From Stenotrophobium rhamnosiphilum (GTDB taxonomy: Bacteria > Pseudomonadota > Gammaproteobacteria > Nevskiales > Nevskiaceae), in contig NZ_QANS01000006.1 of the NCBI RefSeq assembly GCF_003052265.1, forward strand, positions 66,758-130,757: DNA of 64,000 nt, given 5' to 3'. Made by a program: the position numbers and the translations under genes. Below, in pieces: positions 13,666-57,052 of this stretch. The first letter of the stretch is position 1; every line of letters begins with the position of its first letter. The notes under the pieces are model-generated. The model was not told where the DNA came from and did no database searches. It saw only the letters and a program-made list of their open reading frames with translations.

Positions 13666-15129
13666 TCAGCCAAGACGCTCCCACAGCTTGAATACAATCT
13701 CATCGGTAATGCGGTTCTTTTCAGCCTGGGCACCTGCCCCTTGGGCGTATGGGATCCCAATAGTGTCTCTCGATATTCCTACAAAGGCCGTATCGTCAAG
13801 AAAAATAGGAATGACTTCACGGTCGACAACACGAGGCGCAAAACACTCTCGCTCGAATGTTGGCCAAATTTTTTCGCGGTAATGTTTATCTAAGAGGCAA
13901 ATAACTAAGCGGGAGTCACGACCAAATATTTTTTCAAACTGAGCTGACCAAGCGCCCCCTAAAAAATTTACTTCGAAATGTTCATCGAAGAAAACATGAG
14001 TGTCGAGACTTTTAAGCTGCTCCGCTATCTCTCTAGCTAAATCTCGGTTCTCGCCTGCAAACGAAATAGCAAAGTCATATTCGACATCACGACTTACGTT
14101 TTTAAATCCACAATCCTGTCGCAACTTTCCCCAATGTAGATGCTTTAAGAAGTAGAAAAGCGCAGGATCTTCAACCGCAAAATTCTTGGTCTCCGAGTTG
14201 TAATAGAAATGCCGCCCACAAGTTGGCTTATCCCGCAAAAGAATTGGCAAGCGACTTTCTTTAATGTTGTTAATGCTTCCGCGAACATCTTCGTTAGCAT
14301 TTGCAAGCTCATTCAGATCAACAATCGAACTTTCTTGTCCACCGATTTTTTGCAGAAGTTTAAAGTAAGGGTCGTTGTTTGGGCGGAACCTCACGCCTCG
14401 ACAGAATTCCTTTACTGCCGGATAAAAAGCAGATGTCAGTTTCTCTACAACCCTACCTCGCAGAGTTACGAGGTCATATTCCAAATTCTTAGGCGCGTCC
14501 TGAGTTTCCAAAACATCATTCAACATACAAATCGTTTGGCATAGTTGCTGAGTTAGCCAATAGTCGCCTTTTGATTCATCAAAAATAGGCTCCCAATTCT
14601 CTATCTGCACGTTGAGCTTCTGACAACCCTCTCGAATTAAACGCTCTATGTCAGCTCGCGATCCAGCCTGAATTCTATGCACTCCCGTTCGCTTGGCTAC
14701 ATCTGGAACCAATTGAATCAACGCAGCTCCGACTTGATTAATTCCTATCAGAATTAACTTAGTCTTAGCGTCTGCTCCGGCTTCAGCTGAAAACTTAGCT
14801 ATATTGGCAAGCGCTTCTTGAGTTTCGCTAGCTAGACGATGGAAGTCATCAACAACAAAACGACCTTGTAATTTATTTGCCGCAACTGCCTCTATCTTGT
14901 GAACATCTGTCGGAGAACGAGCAGTGAGATATTCCGCTCCCGCTCCGCCAAGCTGCTCTAGAATTTTCCTGACGCAGCTTGTTTTTCCAGTTCCGGACTG
15001 CCCCTCTACAACAACAGGCTTGCCGGGATGCCGGATATCAAGAAGTATTTCATTGAAGTTGGGCGGCTTTACAAAAGTAAACTGAGGAAGTCCTTCAGTG
15101 ACAAATATTTCTTCAACCAGTTGCTTCAT
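13666..15129 (-). CDS. AAA ATPase fused to a C-terminal TIR domain
   Basis: A 487-residue two-domain protein. The N-terminal ATPase has Walker A GQSGTGKTS (near residue 43), Walker B RFVVDDFHRL (near residue 91) and KLILIGINQ as a sensor-like strand. A middle helical region runs to about residue 345. The C-terminal TIR domain starts at YDFAISFAGENRDLAREIAEQL, continues VFFDEHFEVNFLGGAW and RLVICLLDKHY, and has WPTFERECF, which contains the candidate catalytic Glu of NAD-cleaving TIRs. ATPase-TIR fusions are known among anti-phage abortive-infection proteins; that role here is inferred. The gene is clearly more AT-rich than its neighbours and stands alone, so it was probably acquired. Confidence 0.85.
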   Translation of the reverse strand: MKQLVEEIFVTEGLPQFTFVKPPNFNEILLDIRHPGKPVVVEGQSGTGKTSCVRKILEQLGGAGAEYLTARSPTDVHKIEAVAANKLQGRFVVDDFHRLASETQEALANIAKFSAEAGADAKTKLILIGINQVGAALIQLVPDVAKRTGVHRIQAGSRADIERLIREGCQKLNVQIENWEPIFDESKGDYWLTQQLCQTICMLNDVLETQDAPKNLEYDLVTLRGRVVEKLTSAFYPAVKEFCRGVRFRPNNDPYFKLLQKIGGQESSIVDLNELANANEDVRGSINNIKESRLPILLRDKPTCGRHFYYNSETKNFAVEDPALFYFLKHLHWGKLRQDCGFKNVSRDVEYDFAISFAGENRDLAREIAEQLKSLDTHVFFDEHFEVNFLGGAWSAQFEKIFGRDSRLVICLLDKHYREKIWPTFERECFAPRVVDREVIPIFLDDTAFVGISRDTIGIPYAQGAGAQAEKNRITDEIVFKLWERLG

Positions 15130-15236
15130 ATGACACCCAATTTTAAGTTATCTGACATTCACATCGACCAATTCTGCCCGAATTAAAAAGACTCATCCGC
15201 TTTAATCACTTTATATATAAGAACCCACAACCGCTA

Positions 15237-16787
15237 CTAACACCCCGCCCGAATATCCTCACAACGCTGCCGCTTCCCAGAACGATCCGGATAGTCACGC
15301 GCTGAGTGATAGCGGAAGCTGAGTTTTACTGCGCCCTCTGCATTCGCATCATCAACGAGTCGTTGATCGGCATCTGCATATCCAGGCTCGCCGCTTTTCT
15401 TGAGCCAACGATCAAACCATGCGAGTGAGTAGTAGGTGACGGATGGACGTCCCCATCCACCGACGCAGGCATTGCTTGATGTATCTGGGCACCACGATGA
15501 GGCGGGGAATGTGGGGATGAGTGAGAAATCAAAATGCGTGGTGCCTTGTATGCCGATGACGTATGTCGGCACGCCTGCGGATTGCCATTCAGCAAATGCG
15601 ACTTTGTGATTTTCTACATTCGGCTGCACAAGATTTGGTGTTGGTGCAAAACCGTAGTCAGAGTTGAAACTCATCGACGGAACGCGTGGTGCGAATTTTG
15701 GCAGGCCGCCCATCGCAATCAGTTGCGTCAATGTGGTGGTGACTTCTACTGGCAATGGATAGTTGGTTGCAGGTGCGAGGCTTCCGCCGTCTGGGGTCAT
15801 CAGGCTATCGAGTGCGATGGCGACTTTCACCGGATTGCTTTTATCCATTTTGCCCGGCCACGGATCAGCGCCGGGTGCGCCGTAACCTTGCACAACAGAA
15901 ACACCAATCGCGCCGAGTGAGTGGCCTGCGATGCCGAGACGATTTAGATCAAGTCGCTGCCAGATCGGATTGTTCGGCGTGGTGACGGTGAGATAAGTGC
16001 CCGCGCAGGTGACGTTGTGCGGATATGGACGCGATGGCGTGGAGCGGAAGAAGTCGATGGCATCGACTTGCCCTTCCCAAAATACTTTGGGGCCAAGGTT
16101 GCTGCCTTGTTGCAACGTCGGCGTTTGCTGATCTGAACGACCTTGGCCGCGCGGGTCATACGTGAGCACGGCGTAACCGGAACGCACGAGTGCTTGCGCC
16201 AACCACCAGTACACCGTCTCCGGCGCTTGCACCGAGCCGTTGGTGATGACGATGTTGGGCAATTTGCCGCTGCTGTTTTTAGGGAGCCAGACTCGACCCG
16301 AGAGACGTGCGCAGTCGCGGTCATAGAAAACGACGGGCGTGACTTCTGCTTCGTTCTGATAAAACGATTTGCCGTCTGGGCCATCGAAATCCGCATAGCG
16401 AAACGGATCGCCTGCACATTGCGCGCCCCATGTTGCACATAGCGGCAGCAATGGCGTGTTGCCCGAAGGAAAGAGCAACCAACTGGGGTCGGCCAGAGCA
16501 CGCGCCGTCCATTCTTGCGTGTTGGCTAATGACTGCTCGGTGAGGCGCTGTAAAAACCCAGGCGCCAATTCTTCTGCTGGGCCTTCCAGTGTTTTGGCGT
16601 AGTTGCTGGCCTCGCAGGTGGTCCATTCCACAGACGGGAACGCTGCGTTGTCGCAAGTTCGATCAAGGTTCTGGGGCTGCGTCGGCGTTACGCCTTTTGC
16701 AGATGCGCCTGTAGGACTCGATTGGCTACACCCCGACACCATCGCCCCGCAGGCGAGGACGGCGATCGCTACATACTTAATGTTCAT
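15237..16787 (-). CDS. Alpha/beta hydrolase lipoprotein
   Basis: About 516 residues. The start is set at ATG 16787: MNIKYVAIAVLACGAMVSGC gives a signal peptide with a lipobox. Any longer frame would run into the transposon end at 16838. The hydrolase core has PNIVITNGSVQAP, YDPRGQGRSD, and the nucleophile elbow GIAGHSLGAIG near residue 285; the acid and His (GTTHFDF) follow. It is most likely a cell-envelope esterase or peptidase-like hydrolase of unknown substrate. The mobile element is inserted 50 bp upstream of its start codon and may have replaced its promoter. Confidence 0.82.
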   Translation of the reverse strand: MNIKYVAIAVLACGAMVSGCSQSSPTGASAKGVTPTQPQNLDRTCDNAAFPSVEWTTCEASNYAKTLEGPAEELAPGFLQRLTEQSLANTQEWTARALADPSWLLFPSGNTPLLPLCATWGAQCAGDPFRYADFDGPDGKSFYQNEAEVTPVVFYDRDCARLSGRVWLPKNSSGKLPNIVITNGSVQAPETVYWWLAQALVRSGYAVLTYDPRGQGRSDQQTPTLQQGSNLGPKVFWEGQVDAIDFFRSTPSRPYPHNVTCAGTYLTVTTPNNPIWQRLDLNRLGIAGHSLGAIGVSVVQGYGAPGADPWPGKMDKSNPVKVAIALDSLMTPDGGSLAPATNYPLPVEVTTTLTQLIAMGGLPKFAPRVPSMSFNSDYGFAPTPNLVQPNVENHKVAFAEWQSAGVPTYVIGIQGTTHFDFSLIPTFPASSWCPDTSSNACVGGWGRPSVTYYSLAWFDRWLKKSGEPGYADADQRLVDDANAEGAVKLSFRYHSARDYPDRSGKRQRCEDIRAGC

Positions 16788-44804: not shown

Positions 44805-46487
44805 ATGCAATCGAATAATCTTGCTGCCTTGGCGGCAGCCTGCTGGGATTTCCATATCGGCGAATACCCGCCTCTTGCGGCTGAACACGGTGATCCGCGC
44901 GCACGACATATATTCCTGAAGGAATCCATCGCCGATCATCGCCACCGGAATCTGGTCGATCGGGAATTCATCTTAAAACTCGAAGCGATCAATCGTGAAG
45001 AGCTGCCCTCGCAAGATCGCATCACATACGATCTGTTGCACCGTGAGCTAACAGTGGTCTGCGAACAGTTCCGGCTAGAGGAATACTTACGTCCACAGAT
45101 ATATCCATTTGGACCTGAAGCCGTAATTGGAAGCGCGATCAGTAAGACTGTGCTGTCGGATGAGCAAGCCTTGCAAGACTATGTCATACGCTTAGCTTCA
45201 ATCCCCCAGGTTTTCGAAGACTACCTCGAGCGTTTCAGACTGGGGGCATCCAGAGGCTATGTATTGCCAGCTGCCTTGCTTGAGCCTGTGTTGGCCACTG
45301 TCCGCGCTTACGTTCTCGAAGATGTCGAAGCTTGTGCTTGGTACAAACCTTTACGAAACATTCCGAAAGGGACAGTCCCAACCGCTCTGATAGAGGAAGT
45401 TTGGCAGTTAATTGCAAACGTACTCAAACCGGCCTACTTACACTACGCAGACGAGCTTGAAGCTATATATCGTCCAGCAATCCGCAACAGTGTCAGTTGT
45501 GCCGACGCCCCAATGGGACGAGAGTACTACCAACATCTAGTGTCTTATTACACGACGGCTGATGCAGATCCAGATGAAATTCATCGTACCGGACTAGCAG
45601 AAGTAGAGCGCATATCAACTGCAATACTGAAGACGGCAAATGAAGCGGGATTCGGCAACGACGTTGAGACATTTCAAAATTACTTACGCAGCGCAAAGTG
45701 TTTCTTCTCGACTGATGCCAACGCGCTCCGTGAAAGGATAGAGGTATTGTCCAAGCGTATTGATGGACGCATCCCAGAATTATTTGGACTGATTCCACGC
45801 ATGACCTACGGCGTTGAATCAGTTCCTGAAGCACTAGCTGCTTATTATCCGATTGCATCTGCGCACCCCAACCCCGCTAACAATACGTCTGCAGGTAAGT
45901 TCTGGGTGACAAGCTTGGTTGAGCGTTGCCCAAGCTACCTTCATATTCCACTAGTCCTGCACGAAGGGTGGCCCGGTCATCTGATGCATATTGCACTGCT
46001 TCAGGAGATGAAGGATCTGCCCGCATTTCGGCGATACAGCATGGCTGGATATATTGCTTACATCGAAGGCTGGGCACTGTATTGCGAAGGCCTGGGCGAG
46101 GATCTAGGTTTGTACAGCGATCCATACCTCCGCTACGGAAGATTAGAGATGGAAATCCATCGTGCCGTTCGCTTGGTAGTGGACACAGGCATCCATGCGT
46201 TGGGATGGACTCGTCATGACGCTATTACCTATATGCAAAAGTACCTGACGACTAGCCCGGCAGCTATTGAGACGGAAGTGAACCGTTACATTGGCTTACC
46301 TGCGCAAGCCTTGTCGTACAAGACGGGTGAAATGAAGATACTGGAACTTCGACGTCGCGCTGAACAACGTCTTGGCTCTAAATTTTCGCTCAAGAAATTT
46401 CATGATCGCTTAGTGACTGCAGGTGCAGTGACGCTCGAGGTTCTCGAAGCGCACGTGCAAGAATGGATTGAGGGCGCAGAACACTGA
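44805..46487 (+). CDS. DUF885 family protein, predicted metallopeptidase
   Basis: About 560 residues from ATG 44805. The family hallmark VLHEGWPGHLMHIALLQE is near residue 385 and supplies a His-Glu...His zinc site (HExxPGH); a Glu downstream (YIEGWALYCEGLGED) would be the third ligand. DUF885 proteins are related to M32-like carboxypeptidases. It follows tetR by 28 bp and belongs with the catabolic block; it may cleave an amino-acid conjugate imported by the receptor and MFS genes. Confidence 0.82.
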   Translation: MQSNNLAALAAACWDFHIGEYPPLAAEHGDPRARHIFLKESIADHRHRNLVDREFILKLEAINREELPSQDRITYDLLHRELTVVCEQFRLEEYLRPQIYPFGPEAVIGSAISKTVLSDEQALQDYVIRLASIPQVFEDYLERFRLGASRGYVLPAALLEPVLATVRAYVLEDVEACAWYKPLRNIPKGTVPTALIEEVWQLIANVLKPAYLHYADELEAIYRPAIRNSVSCADAPMGREYYQHLVSYYTTADADPDEIHRTGLAEVERISTAILKTANEAGFGNDVETFQNYLRSAKCFFSTDANALRERIEVLSKRIDGRIPELFGLIPRMTYGVESVPEALAAYYPIASAHPNPANNTSAGKFWVTSLVERCPSYLHIPLVLHEGWPGHLMHIALLQEMKDLPAFRRYSMAGYIAYIEGWALYCEGLGEDLGLYSDPYLRYGRLEMEIHRAVRLVVDTGIHALGWTRHDAITYMQKYLTTSPAAIETEVNRYIGLPAQALSYKTGEMKILELRRRAEQRLGSKFSLKKFHDRLVTAGAVTLEVLEAHVQEWIEGAEH

Positions 46488-46812
46488 CTCGGCCGGGCAG
46501 CGGCAATCTCAGAAATTGTTGTCACTTGTGTTGGCAGAAAATGTCTTTATGTTTAGGCGCCCAACCCAAAGGGCGTTTAGTAGCTCTGCGCTCAGATTGC
46601 TGCCAACGGCTAGCTGCAAATACTGAGGAGATCGCCATGCATTCTGATCTTGCCGTGACTTTGCCAGCCAATGTTCGTCATTATTAACCGTCTAAATATA
46701 GATAACATTCATGTAGTTGCTCATAACAATCGATCTTTATGCATGAAATTATAGTTTTATGCATTAGAAGCGATTATCATGCCGGAACCCCGATTGATTG
46801 TGAGAAAGGAAC
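46488..46812. other. Intergenic region with repeated TTTATGCAT
   Basis: No gene seen. Two direct copies of TTTATGCAT (46736-46744 and 46756-46764) are spaced 20 bp, i.e. two helix turns, upstream of the next gene; they look like a regulator binding site. Confidence 0.5.
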
Positions 46813-47484
46813 ATGCCTTTTAGAGCGGATGAAGCAGCCCGAGTTAGATACGAAGAGGTGGAGCGTTACCTCCTAATAAGAACCAGAGATACTGATGAGC
46901 CTGCAAGAGCGCAGAGCAAAGATGCTCTGCTAGATATCATCAATGAACTAGGTCCGGCTGTGGATAGTTACCCGACTTGGCACCCACTTGTTAGCAACCA
47001 TGACGACCGCAATCCCGTCACGACACCTAGCGAACAATGCGGATACAACGGACTAGACCACACGAGATTCTTCGTTAACGGGTTTATTACGTGTCCATAT
47101 GGGGATGGCCAAGATGTTATCGATTCCGTCGAAGCTCTTCCCTATAACAGCGCCGCAAACATCACTGCAGAGCGACTAAATGTGCAGTTCTACAATCCTG
47201 GGGCAACGCCGATTTTGGTCAAGTGCAAGTGGAATAAGCCACTTCTGCCAGGCCGGATGATTCCAATAGCTATCGCCATGCCATTGCTTTTGCAAAAGGA
47301 GATTCCATGCTGGGAATGGTCAGCGGTTGCTGAAACCTGGGAAACAATGCGCCACTACTTTCTAGGCACACCCCACGGAAGCAGATCGTCTCTTTTTGTG
47401 ACGCCGGAGGATGGGCAAACGATAAAGAAGATCTGGAACGAGGTCATCAATACTGGAATGTTCGGCCCCATTAAAATTCGATGA
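46813..47484 (+). CDS. Hypothetical protein
   Basis: A 223-residue protein not recognised. It is rich in Trp and Pro (YPTWHPLVSNHDD, FITCPYGDGQDVIDSV) with no membrane segment or signal peptide. AAAGGA lies just before the ATG. It is separated by 221 bp from the five-gene operon that follows and might belong to the same defence-like block; nothing in its sequence settles this. Confidence 0.6.
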   Translation: MPFRADEAARVRYEEVERYLLIRTRDTDEPARAQSKDALLDIINELGPAVDSYPTWHPLVSNHDDRNPVTTPSEQCGYNGLDHTRFFVNGFITCPYGDGQDVIDSVEALPYNSAANITAERLNVQFYNPGATPILVKCKWNKPLLPGRMIPIAIAMPLLLQKEIPCWEWSAVAETWETMRHYFLGTPHGSRSSLFVTPEDGQTIKKIWNEVINTGMFGPIKIR

Positions 47485-47601
47485 ACCAGCGATGGGGGAG
47501 TCCAATTGGCTCCGTATCTTTTAGCCAGTAAACGCTCAACTTAGTACTGAATGTGACCGGGGAAATCTGAAGTTAGTCCGGAAACTACAATCGTCTTAAG
47601 C

Positions 47602-47617
47602 ACAGCACTCGTGCTGT
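47602..47617. promoter_or_regulatory. Inverted repeat upstream of SIS-HAD operon
   Basis: Perfect 7-bp inverted repeat ACAGCAC/GTGCTGT with a 2-nt centre, about 90 bp before the operon start and next to TATATGAT, a possible -10 region. It is a candidate operator. Confidence 0.5.
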
Positions 47618-47705
47618 TAGCTATATGATGCGCCGATATTAGATCGCTTCTAAAAGTGACAAAGGCAAACCTGAATTTGGTGCGCCAAAACAATGGGAGA
47701 ACGCC

Positions 47706-49664
47706 TTGGGAAAGTCGTATGCAGTAGAACTCGACAACTTTGCGAATACTTACGAGTGGGCGCATAAGCAGGACGCTGCGAGTCTAGGCCGCCTAAAACA
47801 TTTTCTTGCCAGATGGCATGGCGAGCATGTCAGAATTGTTGGGTCTGGAGGCTCGTACTCTGCTGCAGTAGCCGCAGCGCTTTTTAGAGAAATAGCACAT
47901 CAGTCGCCTACGACCCCTTTGACTCCCATCGAGTTCGTTTCTTCGTTAAATCGTCTGGCTTCTCATAGCCTTCTGCTATCAGCTGAAGGTAAAAACAAGG
48001 ACGTTCTTGCTGCAGCGCAGGCCTCCGCTCAAGCAGATATTAGTTGCGCCGCGGTAACGCTAACGGCGAGTAACCCTCTAGTCGATTTTGCTGTGAGTAA
48101 TAAATCGCTGCGGACATTCTCGTATCCCATGGATTGGGGGAAAGATGGATACCTGGCCACGAATTCGCTCATTGGGACAGTTCTGATTATTTACAGAATG
48201 TTCTTCGGAGAAAAACGTTTTAGCGAGTCTCTTGCACACTTATTTAGTCAACCTCGCCTAACAAAGCGGCGTAACGAATTGGCTATTTTCCCAAGTGTAG
48301 AAGAGGCCAAGCGTCGCGGAATATTATTGATCTACTCCGCACAAGCAAAACCATTCGCTGTCGATTTTGAATCGAAGGCAGCAGAATCAGGGCTCGTCTC
48401 TGTCCAAATTACAGACTTACGTCAGTTTGCTCACGGAAGGCACCTTCAGCTCGCAGTTCGTCAGCAGCCCCCTTTCGTAATTTGCGTTTACTCGGAAACA
48501 GATTCAGCGTTAGCGCGTGAGATTACGTCTCACCTTCCTGATCGAAATTTTCACGAAATAAAGATTGATGGAATATCAGATCAGGATGTTTGCGTTGCGG
48601 GCTTGGTGGACGCGATGTATTTAATTGAGGCCTTCGCTAAAGACGCCGACTATGATCCCGGTCAGCCCGATGTGCCTGAATTTGGGCGCCGCATCCATGC
48701 CATCGACATACGAAAGGTGTCGGCTGCTCCCCAACCAGCCAAGCAGGACATACTTGAACTGGCCGCACGCAGAAAAATGGGCGGCGTAAAATCCAATCTG
48801 GTAAGTCCCCTTGTCAAAGAAGCTGCGGAAAGATATTGGGGAAAAATAACAAGAACGAAATTTAAAGCGATTGTTTTTGATTTCGATGGGACGCTGTGCC
48901 GAACCGAGAATCGATACGAGGGGATGCCAGCCTCGATCGTTGATCTGATTTGCCCACTAGTCAGCCAAGGATTGGTATTTGCCATTGCAACAGGGCGTGG
49001 AGATTCACTTAGAGACAGCCTGCTCCAGTCGTTCCCGAGCGAAATGCACAGTTCAATCGTAGTGGGTTACTACAGCGGGGCCTATATCCGGTCGCTTGAT
49101 CAACCGTTTGAAAAGCCCGTTGCAAATCCAGAATTCGAAGAGCTTTGGAATTGGCTAAATTGCTCTCCATATGCTGACTTATTAAAGCCTCTAGATTCAC
49201 TTGTTCGCGGAGGGCAATTTAGTTTGCGCATCCCAGACGCCCAGAGGTCTGCGCGACTTCGCTCAGCAATCGGAGCATGGCTATACGAGAAAAGAAAATC
49301 CTCTTGGCGCGTATTTTCCTCCGGTCATTCAATCGATGTTCTAGACGGCGTAACGAGCAAACGTAAAGTTGTTAGCGAAATTGCTCGGAAATATGGCCTG
49401 CAAGAAGACACTCAAATTCTGCGCCTTGGCGATAGTGGACACGAAGAAGGAAATGATTTCGAACTGCTTGATCAGGGCCTCAGCCTCAGCTGCGACAAAG
49501 TGTCCGCAAATCTCGCAGCATGCTGGAATTTTGGGCCGGCAGGGAATAAGCAAGCTGACGTGACGTCTTGGTATTTGCAGTCAATAACCAGTCAGCAAAA
49601 CCTTTTTGAAATTGACGAGAGAACACTACTTCTAAAAATCTTTGAGCAGGTGCCTACAGCATGA
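47706..49664 (+). CDS. Double SIS-domain / HAD hydrolase fusion protein
   Basis: A 652-residue fusion. Residues about 35-330 form two SIS (sugar isomerase) units: VRIVGSGGSYSAAVAAALFR and later LLIYSAQAKPFAVDFESKAA, with DLRQFAHGRHLQLA as in GlmS-type isomerases. From about residue 388 a HAD phosphatase follows: IVFDFDGTLCRT (motif I), FAIATGRGDS (motif II) and LRLGDSGHEEGNDFELL (motif IV). The start is TTG 47706 with GGGAG 6 nt upstream. The stop overlaps the PRTase start (ATGA). It would isomerise and dephosphorylate a sugar phosphate. Confidence 0.8.
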   Translation: MGKSYAVELDNFANTYEWAHKQDAASLGRLKHFLARWHGEHVRIVGSGGSYSAAVAAALFREIAHQSPTTPLTPIEFVSSLNRLASHSLLLSAEGKNKDVLAAAQASAQADISCAAVTLTASNPLVDFAVSNKSLRTFSYPMDWGKDGYLATNSLIGTVLIIYRMFFGEKRFSESLAHLFSQPRLTKRRNELAIFPSVEEAKRRGILLIYSAQAKPFAVDFESKAAESGLVSVQITDLRQFAHGRHLQLAVRQQPPFVICVYSETDSALAREITSHLPDRNFHEIKIDGISDQDVCVAGLVDAMYLIEAFAKDADYDPGQPDVPEFGRRIHAIDIRKVSAAPQPAKQDILELAARRKMGGVKSNLVSPLVKEAAERYWGKITRTKFKAIVFDFDGTLCRTENRYEGMPASIVDLICPLVSQGLVFAIATGRGDSLRDSLLQSFPSEMHSSIVVGYYSGAYIRSLDQPFEKPVANPEFEELWNWLNCSPYADLLKPLDSLVRGGQFSLRIPDAQRSARLRSAIGAWLYEKRKSSWRVFSSGHSIDVLDGVTSKRKVVSEIARKYGLQEDTQILRLGDSGHEEGNDFELLDQGLSLSCDKVSANLAACWNFGPAGNKQADVTSWYLQSITSQQNLFEIDERTLLLKIFEQVPTA

Positions 49665-50776
49665 AATCTCAGCTTGCTTTTACTTTGATTGGGCAACTGC
49701 TTAAGTGGGACGACGCAAAGTTTGCGGAGGAATTTCGCGAACTACAGCTGATGATCTCGCATAAATACGATGAATACCAAGGGTTCGAACCCGCAACTCG
49801 CTTTCACGTCGCGCTATTGAATTGGTTGAGTCAGTTTCCTGATATTGAAAAAAGATTGACCGCGTATCAGATCGTAAAGGATCGTTTGATTTTTATTAGT
49901 CAGCGCGAGATGAATCATCTCGTAAGTCTTTTTATGCCTATCGCAGAGCGTATGGCCAGAAAGAAGGTTGCTTATGAACTAGGCATACCCTTCTACGAAA
50001 CCTGGTCGGATGAACAAGCGATAGGCCGATTAAAAGCTTTAGAACGAAGAACACTGTATGTCGGGTTAAGTGACGGCGCAAAAATGGATGTCTTTCGGCG
50101 CTATAACGAGGGCACTGTATCGAATGAGCAGGTCGTAGCGTTTAGTGAGATTGGCGATGACAAATGGAAGGACCTCCAGAACGAACTACAAAAAGACATG
50201 TGTCGCTCTGGGCCGCCGGATAAAAGAGATGCGACGTTTGAGATCGTGTGTCTTATCGATGATTTTTCAGGGTCTGGAGCATCTTTGATTAGATACGACG
50301 ATAAAGAGCTTAAGTGGAAAGGGAAAGTTGCAAAGTTTCACAAAGCGAATAGGTTTCGAAAAGATACATTTCTTTCGGCGAATTGTCGCATCCATGTTCA
50401 TCACCATCTTGCCTCTTCTAAGGCTAGTAAGCAGATTGAGGCTGATCTCAAGAAGTTTAAAGTTGATAACCCGGAGTTCGAATACACGTCTTCATTCTCA
50501 TACGTGCTTCCGGACGATATCGTGATTAACGAAAATGACAGCGATAAAAAACTCGTTGCGCTTTTACAAGACTGGTACGACAAAGGGATTGAGGACGAAC
50601 ACACAAAATCCGATATCTGGTTCGGCTACAAACAATGCGGGCTACCTTTGATTTTAGAGCACAACACGCCAAATAATTCTCTTGCATTGCTATGGGCATC
50701 CTCCTCCAAGGACGACGCCAAGCCTTTCATGAAACCACTATTTTCGAGGCGGAAGCGCCACTCAAGCCATGGATAA
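49661..50776 (+). CDS. Phosphoribosyltransferase-like protein
   Basis: A 371-residue protein. EIVCLIDDFSGSGASLIRYD near residue 197 is a clear PRPP-binding loop (hydrophobic strand, two acidic residues, then SGSG). The N-terminal 190 residues are helical. The family resembles PRTases described in comparative genomics of prokaryotic conflict systems, paired with ATPases; I recall this without a database check. Both neighbours overlap: 4 bp with the SIS-HAD gene and 8 bp with the ATPase gene. Confidence 0.72.
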   Translation: MKSQLAFTLIGQLLKWDDAKFAEEFRELQLMISHKYDEYQGFEPATRFHVALLNWLSQFPDIEKRLTAYQIVKDRLIFISQREMNHLVSLFMPIAERMARKKVAYELGIPFYETWSDEQAIGRLKALERRTLYVGLSDGAKMDVFRRYNEGTVSNEQVVAFSEIGDDKWKDLQNELQKDMCRSGPPDKRDATFEIVCLIDDFSGSGASLIRYDDKELKWKGKVAKFHKANRFRKDTFLSANCRIHVHHHLASSKASKQIEADLKKFKVDNPEFEYTSSFSYVLPDDIVINENDSDKKLVALLQDWYDKGIEDEHTKSDIWFGYKQCGLPLILEHNTPNNSLALLWASSSKDDAKPFMKPLFSRRKRHSSHG

Positions 50777-52682
50777 TCCGTTTAAGAAACGCCGAACGGA
50801 ACTGATCGCCGATAAGCGCACACTACTTTCTCTCATTAGCCCTACGCCGGTTAACGAGTTCTTTCGCTCTGAAAAGTCTGAGTTACTTGAAAAGCTCACG
50901 ATGGTCGTCGGCACGCCAGGCTGCGGCAAAACTACCATTGCGCAAATCGTAGAATTTGAAACGCTTGGTACGCTTTGTATTTCTCAGGGCGATCAGCTGA
51001 ACGATAGCCTGATGGATGCGCTTACTTACAACGGCCTTATTTTGAATGGCGTCCCCGTGCTAATGGGCCATCGACTCGCGATGAGTACAAACTTTCGCGG
51101 GATTTGGGACTTGCCGTATTCGAATCAGACACGCTCTGCTTTGCTCAGGGCATTCGTGCAATCAAAAGCTGTTCTTGGCTGGTTTCGCCAACTTGAAGGA
51201 ATGAATGTTTCACTAACTGACGTTGAAATCGTCATGGGTGGAAATGCGGATTCATTAGCGGTTATTACTGGGGCTGATAGTCCCGCTAAATTTCGGCAAT
51301 ACGCGAGAGACATTGAGCTTGCGATTTTCAAGATCGTTACTGCGCTCGTTCCTCCCGCTGAAGGTGCGATGGCAGCCCAGTTTTTGAATACAAGCTACGA
51401 CGTTTTCGAAGCCCTGAAGTATTTCAAAATTAGAAATTGGCCAACACAAGAAGCGGATGCCTGGGTCAATCTGCGGCCGATGATCATTATTGACGACGCA
51501 CACGAACTACACCCTGCGCAGTTTCTTGAATTACGCGACTGGTTGAAGACAAAGACAATTGGCGTATCACGATGGCTAATGTGTAGACCGGATGTTGTTG
51601 CCCCAGAAGATTATCGAGAGGCAATGACGCGAGAACACATGTACGAAGAAGGACTTGCGCCGGGGTCGACTAAGGGACGCGACTATCTTATTAAACTTAT
51701 GGAACTTGGCTCTCGTGACGCCAGACGGTTCAAACCGATTGCGACCGACATCGCCAATCGATACATCGCCGGAATTCCAGAGTTCTCTCGCCGTTCAATT
51801 CGCGATATCCGGAACACCCTTGATGTTGGATCAGCGACACTTCCAGACGGGCAAATTAAACAGCTCAGAGAGGAAATTTCCAAGCTCGCGCGTGACTCTC
51901 GATTCTCCGACACGCTTGTCAATACGATAGGAGGGCGAATCCCTTCAAGTGCACGCGAAGACGAAAAGTTGGCCGCATTGCGCATACTACTTAATCGAGA
52001 GCGAAACAGAACACCCCAACTTGGGTTGCTTGGAGATGACACCGAGATCGGCGAGCCAGTCACCGATGAAAAAATGGCGGCGACGTCCCTCATCGACGGC
52101 GGACGAATACAGCTCATGCGTCAATTTGAGCGGCCGTATTACTACGGGATGGACAAGTTGATTGCTGCAAGCAATGTAAACATCGAACAATTTATTCGCC
52201 TGACAGGTTCATTGGTCGACGAATTGCTCGCTAGGATGATCCGTGGAAATAGCCCAACTTTGACACCAAGGAGCCAACACAAAGCACTTATCAATCAAGC
52301 GAATCAAACGATGAATGAGTGGGATTTTCCTTATAACAGCTCTGTTCGAATCCTAGTTCACAACATTGCGACGCGCTGCCAGGAAATTACTCTCAGGCCT
52401 AATGCGCCGCTAACGTTAGGCGCGAATGCAATTGGCGTTCCTCAGGACGAAATGGATCGCGTCCTGGAGCGGTCTGAGCGACTTACTCGAATATTGCATT
52501 TCGCTTTTGCATATAAAGCGCTCGTGTTTGTTCCGCAATACAAGTGCAAAGGTAAAGTGTGGTGCCTGCTTGAGCTCGGGGCGCTGCCCAGTATGGCTTA
52601 TGGTTTGCGCCTAAGTCGGGGAGGATTTATTGAAGACACTCTTTCGGGGCTTCAGTCTCTTACTCCGGAGTTCTCTCAGTAA
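50769..52682 (+). CDS. AAA/STAND-like ATPase in PRTase operon
   Basis: A 637-residue P-loop ATPase. Walker A is VVGTPGCGKTTIA (near residue 48), Walker B PMIIIDDAHELHP (near residue 237). WLMCRPDVVAPEDYREAMTR follows as a sensor-like region. The remaining 350 residues are helical with a likely winged-helix end. Its ORC/CDC6-like features fit the ATPases that accompany PRTase conflict genes, by memory. It probably senses a trigger and gates the enzyme partners. It overlaps the upstream gene by 8 bp and the downstream gene by 1 bp. Confidence 0.72.
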   Translation: MDNPFKKRRTELIADKRTLLSLISPTPVNEFFRSEKSELLEKLTMVVGTPGCGKTTIAQIVEFETLGTLCISQGDQLNDSLMDALTYNGLILNGVPVLMGHRLAMSTNFRGIWDLPYSNQTRSALLRAFVQSKAVLGWFRQLEGMNVSLTDVEIVMGGNADSLAVITGADSPAKFRQYARDIELAIFKIVTALVPPAEGAMAAQFLNTSYDVFEALKYFKIRNWPTQEADAWVNLRPMIIIDDAHELHPAQFLELRDWLKTKTIGVSRWLMCRPDVVAPEDYREAMTREHMYEEGLAPGSTKGRDYLIKLMELGSRDARRFKPIATDIANRYIAGIPEFSRRSIRDIRNTLDVGSATLPDGQIKQLREEISKLARDSRFSDTLVNTIGGRIPSSAREDEKLAALRILLNRERNRTPQLGLLGDDTEIGEPVTDEKMAATSLIDGGRIQLMRQFERPYYYGMDKLIAASNVNIEQFIRLTGSLVDELLARMIRGNSPTLTPRSQHKALINQANQTMNEWDFPYNSSVRILVHNIATRCQEITLRPNAPLTLGANAIGVPQDEMDRVLERSERLTRILHFAFAYKALVFVPQYKCKGKVWCLLELGALPSMAYGLRLSRGGFIEDTLSGLQSLTPEFSQ

Positions 52683-53737
52683 TGAAACCCTTGATCACAC
52701 ATAAAAACGATGAATGCGCTCCGTTCTTTCAGGCTTTCATTCGCCCCGAGCGGAAAATACTTTTCATCGGGACTCTGGGCTTTAATGATCTTTGTTTAAC
52801 GTTCCCTCGCTTACTCGCCCAATACCTTAACGTTGACTATCTCTTTCTTATTGAAGAGAGACCAGATGTGGCAGGAATTCTGAAGCAGTCGGCTGAACGA
52901 AATAGAGTTGAATTAACAAAAATTCTCGCAGGAAGAAAAATTTCTTTCGAGAGCATTAAAATCGTTGCTGACGATACGGCGAATGTCGCTGGTCGCAACG
53001 CAACTAAAGTCTGCGAGCCCTTAATTAAGCAAGGCTACACAGACGTATTTGTGGACGCTTCAGCAGCCTCACGCGGGGTTTGCTTTCCAGTTGTAAAGCA
53101 AGCCTACGAGAACGCCCAAGCAGATATAAAGATCAATGCACATGTCGTTATGGCTGGCCGCGCAAAGGAACCGCTAAAAGCAAAGTCGATGTCTAGCGAT
53201 ACCCCTCATTACATTCATGGCTTTCATGGGCGGATGGGGACCGACGAGTTACATGGCGTTATTAAACTCTGGATTCCGCAGTTGTCTGAGGGTTCCATTG
53301 CATCGCTTGAGCGAATTCACCGCGAACTTCGACCAGATGAGTCCTGCCCCATATTGCCATTTCCCGTCTCAAATCCGCGTCGAGGAGACGTCCTTCTGCG
53401 CGAATTTGAAAGACAAATCACCAGCGAGTGGGACGTCAATCTCTTAGATATAATTTATGCGCATGAAACAGACCCAACTGACGTGTGCCGCACTATTGCG
53501 CGCATTCATAAGAATCGACTTCAAGCATTTGAAAGATCTACGTTTCAACCGACGGAGACGATTTTATCGCCAGCCGGCTCCCGTATTGGTAGCGTTGGCA
53601 TGGTCTTGGCCGCATTAAAACTGGACCTGCCAATAATGTATGAAGAGAGCATCGGATACAGTTCCGAGGTATCCTCTCTTCCAGATTTATCCGTTGGCCT
53701 ACCTGAGCACCTCTGGCATGTTTGGATTCGGCCGTAA
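52682..53737 (+). CDS. Rossmann-like protein of unknown function
   Basis: A 351-residue protein not recognised by name. RKILFIGTLGFNDLCLTFPR, then VDYLFLIEERPDV and TDVFVDASAASRGVCFPVVK, shows alternating strands and helices as in CARF-like or other Rossmann sensors; the DASAASRG segment sits where CARF folds have their ligand-binding turn. A ligand-sensing role is an inference. The C-terminal third (ILSPAGSRIGSVGMVLAAL) may be a second domain. It shares a base with the ATPase stop (TAATG). Confidence 0.6.
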   Translation: MKPLITHKNDECAPFFQAFIRPERKILFIGTLGFNDLCLTFPRLLAQYLNVDYLFLIEERPDVAGILKQSAERNRVELTKILAGRKISFESIKIVADDTANVAGRNATKVCEPLIKQGYTDVFVDASAASRGVCFPVVKQAYENAQADIKINAHVVMAGRAKEPLKAKSMSSDTPHYIHGFHGRMGTDELHGVIKLWIPQLSEGSIASLERIHRELRPDESCPILPFPVSNPRRGDVLLREFERQITSEWDVNLLDIIYAHETDPTDVCRTIARIHKNRLQAFERSTFQPTETILSPAGSRIGSVGMVLAALKLDLPIMYEESIGYSSEVSSLPDLSVGLPEHLWHVWIRP

Positions 53738-53773
53738 TGAGAGAATCGATCTAGGCGATTTATTACGAATGCT

Positions 53774-54856
53774 ATGACGATACAAGCGCCAAGAATTGCT
53801 GGAGCCGGGCTCTTCGCCGTTGATGTTCTTGTCGGCCCCGATGGTGACGTTTCGAAATGTTCTCTCGGCGGTTCGGCAGGGAATGTTTTGGCTATTCTCG
53901 GCTCGCTTGGCTGGGGCACGAGTCCCATTGGCATGCTAGGCGACGACTCAGCCGCCGACATGCTTCAAGACGAATTCTCTGCCATAGGCGCTGACCTAAC
54001 GTTCATGCGGCGATCAGATGATCGGCGTACTCCTGTTGTTTACCAACATCAGTTGAGCCAGCCCGAATCGCATACGCACAGATTTAGTTTTACGTGCCCC
54101 TGCTGTGGCACTCGGCGCAAACCGCAGTGGGATCTTCGCGATCACCCAGCAACATACGACACAGAGTTACCATCTGCTTCTGTTTTCTTCCTTGATCGCC
54201 CGACAGAATCTGGCATCGCAATGGCTCAGCACTATGCTGAACTTGGCGGGCTTGTTGTATTCGAGCCCTCAGAAATTGGAAGCGATGTAGCCTTGTTTAG
54301 AAAAGCGCTGCAGTATTCGCACATCGTAAAATACGCAGATGATCGTATAAACGGCCTCGAAGACTTCGACACCAGCTCTGTGATTGTCGAAATTCAAACC
54401 CGTGGGCCTCGCGGCCTTCGCTTCAAAACTGCAAATTTGCACTTGGATTGGTTTGAGCTAGGAGCTTACGCCCTACCAACTCACAAACGTGATACCGCGG
54501 GCGCTGGCGACTGGTGCACGGCAGGCCTAATTTATAAGTTATTTAATGACGGCGTAAGCAGCAGAGATGATGTTGGGCATGAGTCACTTCTGAACGCGTT
54601 GGCGTTTGGCCAGGCATTGTCTGCATTTAACTGCATGACGGAGGGCGCGCGCGGGCTTCTAGATGCATGGCGCCCAGAGAAGATTGTGGAGCAAGCTCGA
54701 GAGCTGAGCTCTCTGCGTTTGAGCGCGATGCTTGAAAACCAAATTGCTCCATCAAGTCCTATGAGCGAGGACTTTTTAGTCCGTCTCGTTGATGATTCAA
54801 TTTTTGCTCAGCGCAAATCTCATTTAAGCACTAACAATTTCCTCTGCTGCCTCTAA
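53774..54856 (+). CDS. PfkB-family carbohydrate/nucleoside kinase
   Basis: A 360-residue ribokinase-type kinase. CSLGGSAGNVLAILGSLGW is the substrate-side glycine motif, and HKRDTAGAGDWCTAGLIYKL is the DTxGAGD anion-hole and catalytic Asp motif. FSFTCPCCGTRRKPQWD inserts a possible zinc finger not typical of the family. It would phosphorylate a sugar or nucleoside. It starts 36 bp after the preceding gene and ends the operon; its last 33 bp overlap the 3' end of the convergent NADAR gene. Confidence 0.82.
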   Translation: MTIQAPRIAGAGLFAVDVLVGPDGDVSKCSLGGSAGNVLAILGSLGWGTSPIGMLGDDSAADMLQDEFSAIGADLTFMRRSDDRRTPVVYQHQLSQPESHTHRFSFTCPCCGTRRKPQWDLRDHPATYDTELPSASVFFLDRPTESGIAMAQHYAELGGLVVFEPSEIGSDVALFRKALQYSHIVKYADDRINGLEDFDTSSVIVEIQTRGPRGLRFKTANLHLDWFELGAYALPTHKRDTAGAGDWCTAGLIYKLFNDGVSSRDDVGHESLLNALAFGQALSAFNCMTEGARGLLDAWRPEKIVEQARELSSLRLSAMLENQIAPSSPMSEDFLVRLVDDSIFAQRKSHLSTNNFLCCL

Positions 54857-55372
54857 TTTTTTGCGTGTTGTTCGCTTAGTACTTTCCACGCTTTTTTTGC
54901 TGCGGCCTTTGAGTTGTTCGGATTTTCCAATTTCGTCCCGAACTTCCATTAGTAGCTGGCCTAATTTGTTTTGGCCCTTACCGTTTACTTCGCCCCAGAG
55001 CCGGTTGACCGCATTATCAACGGTGGCAGCCTCAACCAACCTCGCGTTGCCAGTGCTGAGAAGTAAATCTTTTAGATCTTGGTGCTGAGTGAACTTGGCA
55101 AGCAAGATGCGTTTCATGCGATCAAATTTAATCTTGGACCAGTCTGGTGATACGTCCCAAACGTATAGTCCATGAGCAGCCATCGCGAGTAATGCCGGAC
55201 TTGGCGCCGACATCAGCCACTTTCGAACAGCTGGTTTTCTGGCTTTGCCGGCTTGATATGCGTGTTCGGTTGTTGGAAAAACTTCGTCTTCGAAAGTTAC
55301 ATCTCGCTTGAAGAGATTACTGAAAGCACCGTAAGGCTTTTCGCTAGCACGGTAGAAACGGATCTCATTCAT
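54824..55372 (-). CDS. NADAR-family N-glycosidase
   Basis: About 182 residues from ATG 55372 (GGAG 6 nt upstream). The YbiA/NADAR motifs are clear: FYRASEKPYGAFSNLFKRDV, EVFPTTEHAYQAGKARKP (with the catalytic Glu) and RLWGEVNGKGQNKLGQLLME. NADAR enzymes hydrolyse N-glycosidic bonds, including removal of ADP-ribose from guanine and cleavage of ribosylaminopyrimidines. It faces the PfkB gene tail to tail and follows an XRE regulator. A role as antidote or as part of the adjacent PRTase system is an inference. Confidence 0.83.
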   Translation of the reverse strand: MNEIRFYRASEKPYGAFSNLFKRDVTFEDEVFPTTEHAYQAGKARKPAVRKWLMSAPSPALLAMAAHGLYVWDVSPDWSKIKFDRMKRILLAKFTQHQDLKDLLLSTGNARLVEAATVDNAVNRLWGEVNGKGQNKLGQLLMEVRDEIGKSEQLKGRSKKSVESTKRTTRKKLEAAEEIVSA

Positions 55373-55401
55373 GGTGGTCTCCTGTAATTCAGCTGAGTAC
55401 T

Positions 55402-55689
55402 TCATTGGATTGATTTCGAGTTCGCGAGGTCGCCGCGCGCTTTAGTTTTTTGCATCTTTGTTTCACGCCAGGCTTTTAAAACTGCATTGACGTCTTCGGG
55501 TGGCAACAACGCCATTAGGTTTAAGACAGACGACATTGCCGCCGGGGTGGTTGATCCACGCATCCACTCGCCTACTGCGCGCGTGCTCGCATGCGCAAGC
55601 AGCGCTAAATCTTCGTGCGTGAGACGGCGTCCGTGCACAACGGAAAGCCTAAGCTGCATATCAGTTAATGTTTTTTGTAATTTATTCAC
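55402..55689 (-). CDS. Small XRE-like helix-turn-helix regulator
   Basis: A 95-residue protein starting at GTG 55689. The HTH reads GRRLTHEDLALLAHASTRAV and then GEWMRGSTTPAAMSSVLNL. It lies 29 bp upstream of the NADAR gene on the same strand, and two inverted repeats sit directly upstream, so autoregulation of the pair is likely. Confidence 0.72.
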   Translation of the reverse strand: MNKLQKTLTDMQLRLSVVHGRRLTHEDLALLAHASTRAVGEWMRGSTTPAAMSSVLNLMALLPPEDVNAVLKAWRETKMQKTKARGDLANSKSIQ

Positions 55690-55702
55690 ATATAACTCAT
55701 TT

Positions 55703-55726
55703 TAACTTACATAAAATTGTAAGTTA
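55703..55726. promoter_or_regulatory. Inverted repeat, likely XRE operator
   Basis: TAACTTAC/GTAAGTTA, 8-nt centre, 14 bp upstream of the XRE gene start. A good candidate for its operator. Confidence 0.6.
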
Positions 55727-55730
55727 CACA

Positions 55731-55763
55731 CATAAAGAACGCAATAGATATGCGTTCTTTATG
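55731..55763. promoter_or_regulatory. Perfect 13-bp palindrome
   Basis: CATAAAGAACGCA and TGCGTTCTTTATG are perfect complements separated by 7 nt. There is no T-run, so it is more likely an operator or end-associated hairpin than a terminator. Confidence 0.6.
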
Positions 55764-55950
55764 TTTGGCAATCAATGGATGTAGAAGCGATTAAGACCGC
55801 GCTTCTTAGGAAGAAGCTGCATAGCGCCGAGCCCGATGCGTTACCACCTCTGCGACAGAGCGGCTAAGCATTGACCTAAAAGAATCCTATACGCGTCGGT
55901 TTAGTCATTTTTTCAGGGAGCCCTGCCCTGGCGCGCGTCGGTCCAAAATT

Positions 55951-56016
55951 GTTAACGACTTTAATTGAGTGTCAACAACTTTAATTCCGTGTAAACGACT
56001 TTAATTACGCCGAACA
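55951..56016 (-). repeat. Right transposon end with three abutting TnsB-type sites
   Basis: Three 20-bp units lie back to back: GTTAACGACTTTAATTGAGT, GTCAACAACTTTAATTCCGT and GTAAACGACTTTAATTACGC, followed by CGAACA, the tip (TGTTCG on the reverse strand). Abutting or overlapping sites are characteristic of the Tn7 right end. The stretch 55764-55950 has no convincing gene. Confidence 0.9.
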
Positions 56017-56021
56017 ACTGG
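56017..56021. repeat. Target site duplication, right copy (ACTGG)
   Basis: ACTGG directly follows the right tip and matches the left copy at 16833-16837. Confidence 0.88.
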
Positions 56022-56175
56022 GTTGCGGCTCGGGCGGAACGGCCTCCCATAAATGGGTGAGGCTGACTCATTAACGCTGCAATAATCTGTTTTCCATTCT
56101 GCGGCGTCCTGTGCGTATCGGTCTTGAACCCGGTACTGAGCGGGGCTCACGCCGGCCCCTTATAAGGAGAACAAC

Positions 56176-56970
56176 ATGTCGCAAGCCGCTACTGACCCTG
56201 TCCTGCTCGAACGTCGTGGAGACGTCCTCTGGATCATCATTAACCGTGAAGAGCGCCGTAACGCGCTGAATCAGGAAGTGGTGCAGACCATCGACCGCGG
56301 CATTGCTGAGGCGGTTGCGGGCGGCGAAGTGAAGGCGATTGTGCTGACCGGCGCGGGCGACAAGGCATTTTGCGCTGGCGCGGATCTGGCCAAGGGCGCT
56401 AAGGGTTTTGCGTTTGCTGTCGATTTCTCACGACCCAAGCATTACATCGTTGATCTGTTCAAGCGCTTGCAGGAGTGCACGCTGCCCGTGATTGCTCGCG
56501 TGAATGGCCATGCGATGGCGGGCGGCTTCGGCCTGCTCTGCGCTTGCGACATGGTGATTGCGGCAGATGACATTCGCATCGGCACCACCGAGAGCAAGAT
56601 CGGCATGACGCCGATGATGATCCTGCCGTACATGCTGCGCGTGTTGCCGCCGCGCAAACTACAAGAGATGTGCATCACCGGCGAACAGTTCACGGCGAAG
56701 GAAGCCTACGAGTGGGGCCTGCTGAACTATCTCGTGCCGCGTGCTGAACTCGACACCAAGCTGGACTGGCTGCTGTCGCGCATCATCGACAAATCACCCA
56801 CCGCAATTCGCCTGGGCAAACAGGCTTTCAACGCGACGCGCGATATGGGTCTGCGTGAAGCGCTGGAGTACGCGCAGGCGATGGTGCCGGTGATGTCGAG
56901 CACGCAGGACGCGAAGGAAGGCATGGGTGCGTTCCAAGAGAAGCGCGCGCCTAACTTCACGGGCACCTAA
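56176..56970 (+). CDS. Enoyl-CoA hydratase
   Basis: A 264-residue crotonase-fold enzyme. GAGDKAFCAGADLAKG and RVNGHAMAGGFGLLCACDMV form the oxyanion hole; DDIRIGTTESKIGMTPMMIL carries a catalytic-position Glu. GGAG lies 6 nt before the ATG. It opens a co-directional run leading to an AtuA-like gene and an acyl-CoA carboxylase, so it probably hydrates the enoyl-CoA product of that pathway. Its upstream 155 bp were left intact by the transposon. Confidence 0.88.
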   Translation: MSQAATDPVLLERRGDVLWIIINREERRNALNQEVVQTIDRGIAEAVAGGEVKAIVLTGAGDKAFCAGADLAKGAKGFAFAVDFSRPKHYIVDLFKRLQECTLPVIARVNGHAMAGGFGLLCACDMVIAADDIRIGTTESKIGMTPMMILPYMLRVLPPRKLQEMCITGEQFTAKEAYEWGLLNYLVPRAELDTKLDWLLSRIIDKSPTAIRLGKQAFNATRDMGLREALEYAQAMVPVMSSTQDAKEGMGAFQEKRAPNFTGT

Positions 56971-56979
56971 GAACATTTT

Positions 56980-57040
56980 GTAGGAGCGCCTCTTAGGCGC
57001 GATTGACGCAGAAAGAATCGCGCCTAAGAGGCGCTCCTAC
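56980..57040. repeat. REP-like palindrome, GTAGGAGCGCCTC type
   Basis: Arms beginning GTAGGAGCGCCTCTTAGGCG and ending with the complement flank a 15-nt loop. Located between the hydratase and AtuA-like genes. Confidence 0.9.
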
Positions 57041-57052
57041 GGGGAAACATTT

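Follow-up and report, generated by a model that had tools for sequence, protein, structure and literature searches.

What is the function of a compact gene set that joins sugar-phosphate enzymes to a phosphoribosyltransferase (PRTase), an ATPase, and a predicted nucleotide sensor? The question is raised by a 64,000-nt stretch of Stenotrophobium rhamnosiphilum DNA (contig NZ_QANS01000006.1, positions 66,758–130,757, forward strand), called the window here; all coordinates are positions within it. Five genes follow one another on the plus strand. They encode SIS-HAD, a fusion of an N-terminal SIS sugar-phosphate isomerase/deaminase-like domain and a C-terminal HAD-IIB phosphatase (47706–49664, 652 aa, TTG start); a PRTase-CE phosphoribosyltransferase, the predicted effector or writer enzyme (49661–50776, 371 aa); an ORC/CDC6-like P-loop ATPase (50769–52682, 637 aa); a stand-alone CARF protein of the CARF6 family, the predicted nucleotide sensor (52682–53737, 351 aa); and a PfkB-family sugar/nucleoside kinase (53774–54856, 360 aa). 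Their junctions are, in order, overlaps of 4, 8, and 1 bp and a gap of 36 bp, exactly as reported in an earlier note on this DNA. That note ended the operon at the fifth gene and overlooked two genes on the minus strand that extend the unit to 55689. One encodes a NADAR N-glycosidase (YbiA-like) of a module-specific clade (54824–55405); it lies tail to tail with the PfkB gene, which it overlaps by 33 bp. The other encodes a small helix-turn-helix (HTH)-like protein, a predicted regulator (55402–55689, 95 aa). As predicted from computation, the cassette is probably an antiviral system. Our more specific reading, a tentative one that falls a little short of an even chance, is a horizontally mobile, nucleotide-gated defence (conflict) module in which the PRTase writes and NADAR, SIS-HAD, and PfkB erase or recycle.

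The linkage of the five genes was examined in a GTDB genome scan with a PRTase alignment, which returned 304 relatives. The best 80 were analyzed; these are the loci nearest to an alignment that was itself built from loci carrying the cassette. A locus was considered informative if it contained at least 3 kb to the left and 7 kb to the right of the PRTase gene, which holds for 53 of the 80, the other 27 being uncounted. With profiles made in this analysis, all five genes are found in 53 of 53 informative loci. Across the whole set, 69 of 80 loci carry all five, and the remaining 11 meet the end of the locus inside the cassette. Three loci that were counted as complete (loci are designated by L numbers) have one gene in two pieces: the ATPase gene in L039, the PfkB gene in L041, and the CARF gene in L055. 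The splits in L039 and L055 are of about 1.5 kb, and L015 has several genes in pieces. Two gene orders prevail, with SIS-HAD either leading or placed between CARF and PfkB. The 53/53 linkage rules out chance adjacency of the five genes and bears out the earlier proposal that they form one linked unit. The neighbourhood survey that the same note had called for turned up neither of the contrary outcomes it named, unlinked genes or a housekeeping sugar pathway.

The genes also diverge in step. Among 76 rows with five full-length genes, including the window and excluding L006, L007, and L015, the pairwise identities of the gene families correlate with r values of 0.83–0.96 over the 10 pairs. For each pair, 0 of 500 shuffles gave a correlation as high, and the highest shuffled value was 0.2. 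The tightest correlations are PRTase–CARF (0.96), ATPase–CARF (0.947), SIS-HAD–PfkB (0.937), and PRTase–ATPase (0.917), and the families form two blocks, one of PRTase, ATPase, and CARF and the other of SIS-HAD and PfkB.

Plasmids and viral contigs carry the same set with some variation. Searches by tblastn with the CARF protein and with the ATPase each returned 17 plasmid records with identical accessions, of which 15 were analyzed (H5 and H7, both from A. tumefaciens, were left out). All five genes are present on 14 of the 15, one of them frameshifted (L015), and NADAR is present on 8. In R. lentis, PfkB is missing across the whole 423-kb record. Four IMG/VR contigs carry the cassette; one ends before SIS-HAD (L106), and another lacks PfkB in a 73-kb record (L107). 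In the PfkB-less variant, represented by L017 and L107, NADAR directly precedes SIS-HAD on the same strand. Two PRTase–ATPase–CARF trios per locus, with one SIS-HAD/PfkB/NADAR set seen, occur in L006 (with L140) and in L007, and a gene for a patatin-like phospholipase (PF01734, 1.1e-25) lies on the opposite strand between the two trios of L006. A minimal trio without sugar genes was considered for L006 (R. tumorigenes) and rejected, since HTH, NADAR, SIS-HAD, and PfkB genes directly precede the first trio.

The product of gene 4 is matched over residues 3–350 of 351 by the PADLOC CARF6 model (E = 1.1e-153), a model that 53 of 53 relatives match at 1e-10 or better. The AlphaFold2 model of this protein, built from 53 sequences, has a pLDDT of 94.9 and a pTM of 0.93. 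When the model was re-aligned with VIA, rows 1–30 of 50 were all CARF-domain proteins, a class that we assign from their names; they include Csm6, Card1, Can2, Csa3, Cam1, Cad1, and ring nucleases. The first unrelated match is row 31 (Z 8.4). The best match is the CRISPR nuclease 6sce (Z 14.9, rmsd 3.3, 233 residues aligned), which we take to be Can1, a protein with two CARFs per chain. Because the 6sce alignment spans residues 25–326 and thus takes in both halves of the chain, gene 4 is read as encoding a CARF pair in one chain. Foldseek alone returned CARF proteins at probabilities of 0.98–1.0, ranked below long-chain cation-chloride cotransporter domains, and a PDB sequence profile search with gene 4 gave no CARF match. 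No nuclease or other effector domain is seen in the 351 residues. As judged from these models, the protein is a predicted nucleotide-signal sensor of the CARF type found in type III CRISPR. The designation "Rossmann protein" in the earlier note is correct as to a Rossmann-like fold; the more exact identity as a CARF6 sensor, which makes this the most informative member of the cassette, had escaped it.

Cyclic oligoadenylates are the ligands of those CARF proteins whose function is known, and the role mainly ascribed to CARF proteins is to read the cyclic oligoadenylate that Cas10 synthesizes. We therefore asked which synthases accompany the cassette, using models of Csm1, Cmr2, and SMODS, to which the search was limited. 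No Cas10 (Csm1 and Cmr2 models) scored over the cut-off in any of 28 cassette genomes, some of which are draft assemblies; among control genomes, 3 of 14 have Csm1 and 1 of 14 has Cmr2 over the cut-off. Four matches to Cas10 models below the cut-off, at 19–23 bits, span just 34–63 model positions. The CARF protein is thus seemingly independent of Cas10 in these genomes, and an accessory of type III CRISPR was rejected on the same count. What the cassette protein shares with 6sce and the CARF proteins of type III CRISPR is the CARF fold across both chain halves, whereas it differs from them in having no effector domain and no Cas10 over the cut-off. A SMODS cyclase, as in cyclic-oligonucleotide-based antiphage signalling systems (CBASS), occurs in 3 of the 28 genomes. 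CBASS itself was rejected, as no CD-NTase cyclase is found among the window proteins scanned.

Gene 2 matches the Pfam family PRTase-CE (PF24390, 1e-21), a membership shared by 60 of 60 PRTases, and also the PADLOC model PRTase_III-A (1.8e-18). D200 and D201 of the phosphoribosyl pyrophosphate (PRPP)-type motif are invariant in 60 sequences. In the C-terminal HNTPNN block, a family signature, H334, N335, P337, N338, and N339 are invariant and T336 nearly so. The AlphaFold2 model (pLDDT 93.8) is matched by VIA mainly to UPRT, HPRT, XGPRT, and PyrR with Z values of 7.3–8.8, a range that VIA flags as common arrangements. Foldseek alone with this model gave zero matches at E ≤ 1e-3, and PDB sequence profiles gave no convincing match. 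The assignment as a PRTase is nevertheless firm, because the PRPP-type motif and the Pfam membership back up the modest fold scores. Gene 3 belongs to the Pfam family ORC-CDC6-like (PF24389, 1.2e-9), as do 28 of 29 ATPases, and its Walker A residues (P50, G51, G53, K54, and T55) and Walker B residues (D242–D243) are invariant in 29 sequences. The pairing of a PRTase with an ORC/CDC6-like ATPase, which the earlier note had linked to proposed conflict systems, therefore holds for this locus and its relatives. The cassette proteins are members of this known pair, joined in the loci examined by CARF6 and SIS-HAD and, in almost every case, by PfkB.

The match to PRTase_III-A, which is read as the retron III-A effector, relates the cassette PRTase to retrons. 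An excerpt of PMC12548924 describes a PRTase in type III retrons and treats it as the effector normally found in type III-A. The cassette differs from retron type III-A in having the ATPase and CARF protein in place of the reverse transcriptase and retron RNA. A retron was rejected, as no reverse transcriptase is found among the nine window proteins scanned and an Rfam scan of 40–60 kb gave no RNA at the gathering score.

The sugar enzymes are recognized by profile. The SIS-HAD protein matches HAD-IIB (PF08282, 1.3e-7; Pfam/NCBIfam), and its SIS match is weak (0.095) and below the cut-off. A profile of 13 SIS-HAD homologues matches NagB-II/SIS and HAD structures (4.7e-6 to 5.2e-6). Within these homologues, a GSGGS motif is nearly invariant, and E227, H243, D392, D394, K552, and G575–D576 are invariant; E227 and H243 of the SIS part presumably have a GlmS-like role. 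The kinase matches PfkB (PF00294, 8e-15), and G243, G245, and D246 of its GAGD motif are invariant in 12 sequences. Its nearest solved relatives are fructokinases (1.7e-20). Of the PfkB members, 12 of 12 match the NCBIfam model for ribose-1-phosphate kinase and 11 of 12 that for fructokinase; the window protein falls far below both cut-offs. Whereas gene 4 is a member of PADLOC CARF6, SIS-HAD and PfkB match no PADLOC model. Profile searches thus agree with the identities first proposed for the SIS-HAD (its SIS part below the cut-off), PRTase, P-loop ATPase, and PfkB proteins, and the chemistry of phospho-sugars and ribosyl compounds assigned to them is in keeping with the catalytic residues that the enzymes retain. 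Together, these data show that the unit is conserved and that its genes co-diverge, with a CARF protein that lacks an effector domain, intact Walker and PRPP-type motifs, and conserved catalytic residues.

NADAR (PF08719, 2e-27) is 57–73% identical across 7 module homologues. In the 36 rows that have NADAR, its mean identity is 70% versus 33–45% for the other cassette proteins. Its profile is nearer to YbiA (2b3w, 2.1e-28) than to the NADAR structure 8bau (3.1e-10). A NADAR scoring at least 298 bits is present in 8 of 8 module genomes that have a local copy. It is found in 0 of 16 module genomes without a local copy (two weaker NADARs of 115 and 38 bits occur) and in 0 of 9 genomes without the module (one NADAR of 109 bits occurs). 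As a partner, NADAR is dedicated to the module and strongly constrained, and many copies of the cassette dispense with it (it is present in 25 of 53 informative loci). The DarT1-NADAR toxin–antitoxin system has an NADAR N-glycosidase in common with the cassette, which differs in having no ADP-ribosyltransferase match and an NADAR closer to YbiA. A plain DarT-type toxin–antitoxin system was rejected, with no ADP-ribosyltransferase domain match in the seven proteins. The window copy of the small gene next to NADAR has no Pfam match; its partners in L018–L020 are 50–53% identical and occupy the same position, and the L018 partner has weak HTH_31/HTH_3 matches below the cut-off. In another locus, L014, a gene for a caspase-domain protein (14028–15482; PF00656, 3.5e-34) adjoins the NADAR gene of the module.

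Mobility was examined by distribution and by boundaries. A PRTase-only tree of 79 of the 80 loci plus the window places the cassette in 12 phylum-level groups, as labeled from submitters' titles, many of them for metagenome-assembled genomes. The Pseudomonadota label changes 10 times on this tree, and 5 of the changes are forced by well-supported branches, which suggests transfer. A single-protein search with the CARF protein across 369 genomes of the class had one positive, the genome of origin; a profile search found the CARF protein in 6 of 398 genomes across the phylum, again including that genome. Among near genomes, 3 of 41 are positive including the source (2 of 40 relatives), and the sole genome of the same genus is negative. 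Because so few genomes carry it, the cassette is accessory DNA. An ordinary housekeeping sugar operon was rejected, given this sporadic occurrence in relatives and phylum and the constant presence of CARF and ATPase. No CARF relatives were found in the phage collection, and no near DNA match was found in the E. coli genomes searched.

The nearest relatives, L018, L019, and L020, keep all seven genes from SIS-HAD to the HTH-like gene in the same order at 50–78% identity, and none of eight window flank genes (five left, three right) was found in them at 1e-5. The core genes to the right (enoyl-CoA hydratase and AtuA-type) are 70–91% identical in one same-genus and two same-family genomes, in which both the module genes and the tested left-flank genes are missing from the 20 kb compared. 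The transferable unit is therefore placed at approximately 47706–55689. Direct repeats that would mark an insertion were sought in 46400–56200, and no clear one was found.

The genes around the cassette were sampled by taking the first 150 of 257 open reading frames (ORFs) in list order (L018–L062), which is not a random draw. The control was 150 ORFs drawn at random from 207, which came from 19 arbitrarily placed stretches. At 1e-5, the flank ORFs match 376 PADLOC models and the control ORFs 32, a ratio that is inflated by redundant models and that rests on a control unmatched for phylum. The flank matches include Gabija A and B (two each), type I methyltransferase (two), HEC-01A (two), and RTasHel; the control matches include mad8 (4), AriA (3), RtcR-type CARF regulators (2), and type I methyltransferase (1). 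By Pfam, the flanks contain phage integrases (4), TnsD and TniQ (3 each), patatin (2), and RES (2), and no further family occurs in more than 4 of the 150 ORFs. No constant transporter or catabolic gene is therefore seen in them. Overall, the cassette frequently resides on plasmids and has defence genes for neighbours on mobile DNA. On five alphaproteobacterial plasmids (L004, L006, L007, L011, and L014), genes of the RHE_PE00001 family lie near the module.

These findings allow us to propose a mechanism for the mobile, nucleotide-gated defence module. The ATPase would recognize foreign nucleic acid or its replication, and the CARF protein would bind a nucleotide signal and set a threshold; jointly, they would release the PRTase. 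With PRPP, the PRTase may then add phosphoribose to a base or amine of a free nucleobase, a nucleotide, or nucleic acid, which would drain or poison nucleotide metabolism or mark a target. NADAR, the most constrained protein, would strip the N-linked ribosyl group, and SIS-HAD and PfkB would isomerize, dephosphorylate, and re-phosphorylate the freed sugar, so that these three proteins would serve for safety and recycling. Regulation of the gene set would fall to the small HTH-like protein. We infer both the sensing of foreign DNA by the ATPase and all of the substrates from protein family and motif.

Several observations weigh against this proposal. NADAR is missing from 28 of 53 informative loci and PfkB from two records, that of L107 possibly being a fragment; an eraser or recycling role is consequently not universal. 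The cassette contains no known signal synthase. The co-divergence of the genes fits joint inheritance as well as co-function. To the limits on the flank comparison can be added that control ORFs, too, match the defence models mad8, AriA, and type I methyltransferase, and that genomic islands generally may be enriched in defence genes.

The gap left by the signal source leads to the best-surviving alternative, which we consider rather unlikely. In it, the PRTase, SIS-HAD, and PfkB would make a ribosylated nucleotide signal that the CARF pair reads; the ATPase would act on DNA, and NADAR would terminate signaling. A signal maker inside the module would account for cassette genomes having Cas10 over the cut-off in 0 of 28 cases and SMODS in 3 of 28, although other cyclases could fill the same place, as just the three synthase models were searched. 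That the PRTase and CARF protein are the tightest co-diverging pair is in its favor, as are the effector-like genes in two loci (the patatin phospholipase of L006 and the caspase of L014); a constant, dedicated downstream effector is nevertheless missing from the cassette. Against it, the ligands established for CARF proteins are cyclic oligoadenylates, which no PRTase is known to make. There is a parallel in the Ter system, for which an excerpt of PMC7824862 predicts that PRTases and HAD phosphatases produce a nucleoside-type signal. The cassette has in common with Ter, as presented in that excerpt, the logic of a PRTase, a HAD protein, and a ligand-binding protein, and it differs in that its seven proteins have no TerB/C/D-type Pfam matches. 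A stronger form of the idea, which we regard as unlikely, is a third branch of CARF signaling apart from type III CRISPR and CBASS: the CARF pair would read a ribosyl signal from the cassette's own PRTase and sugar enzymes, the dedicated NADAR would end the signal, and the ORC-like ATPase would detect foreign DNA.

Two further alternatives lie outside nucleotide-gated defence. A metabolite-repair or salvage island, in which the enzymes would salvage sugars or clear away metabolites that have become ribosylated or glycated, under regulation by CARF and the ATPase, is improbable in our judgment. Relatives of SIS, PfkB, HAD, and NADAR/YbiA do work in sugar and riboflavin-intermediate metabolism, and 7 of 12 PfkB members also match a fructoselysine 6-kinase model. 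The sporadic distribution and defence-type flanks, the ORC-like ATPase and CARF sensor found in every informative locus (53/53), and the flanks' want of a constant transporter or catabolic gene all argue against such an island. We hold it equally doubtful that the cassette is an addiction or toxin–antitoxin system for plasmid or island maintenance, with the PRTase (or ATPase plus PRTase) as toxin and NADAR as antidote. The 17 plasmid records and the conserved NADAR partner alongside an HTH-like gene would suit such a role, and an excerpt of PMC9503650 describes DarT-DarG-like systems in which NADAR takes the place of the antitoxin domain. However, 28 of 53 loci lack NADAR, in 16 of 16 such genomes no NADAR of the same clade is supplied from elsewhere, and a set of five to seven genes is large for a simple addiction system.

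The earlier note considered the combination perhaps undescribed, which is doubtful for its parts: PRTase-CE, ORC-CDC6-like, and CARF6 are families already catalogued, the first two in Pfam and CARF6 in PADLOC, which also lists the PRTase relative. The CARF6 family reportedly stems from a 2020 census of the CARF superfamily, and the PRTase-CE and ORC-CDC6-like families reportedly come from work by Burroughs and Aravind in 2020. No paper naming the cassette is among the literature matches listed, as far as their excerpts extend; the likeliest sources lie outside this search, and a published description may exist. Neither "phosphoribosyl" nor "sugar" occurs in the main text of PMC4012209, nor "CARF6" or "PRTase" in that of PMC12669027, and an excerpt of PMC13092281 touches briefly on NADAR and PRTase domains. 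A fixed CARF operon that spans 12 phylum-level groups and is found without Cas10 over the cut-off in 28 genomes makes the CARF ligand and its maker directly testable questions. If the defence reading is true, the coupling of a PRTase with an ORC-like ATPase and a ribosyl writer–eraser set would be an immune chemistry of which we know no worked example.

Three minor features border the cassette. Immediately upstream, a 223-aa ORF (46813–47484) matches no Pfam or PADLOC family and has no counterpart in L018–L020. Just beyond the right edge, three tandem 17-bp units with a spacing of 20 form an iteron-like array (55950–56006). Farther right, the enoyl-CoA hydratase gene is separated from the AtuA-type gene by a palindromic repeat about 62 bp long (56976–57041). 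The repeat has zero matches in the seven relatives searched and approximately 30 further matches across its own genome, mostly on both strands, and thus belongs to a dispersed family resembling repetitive extragenic palindromic (REP) elements.

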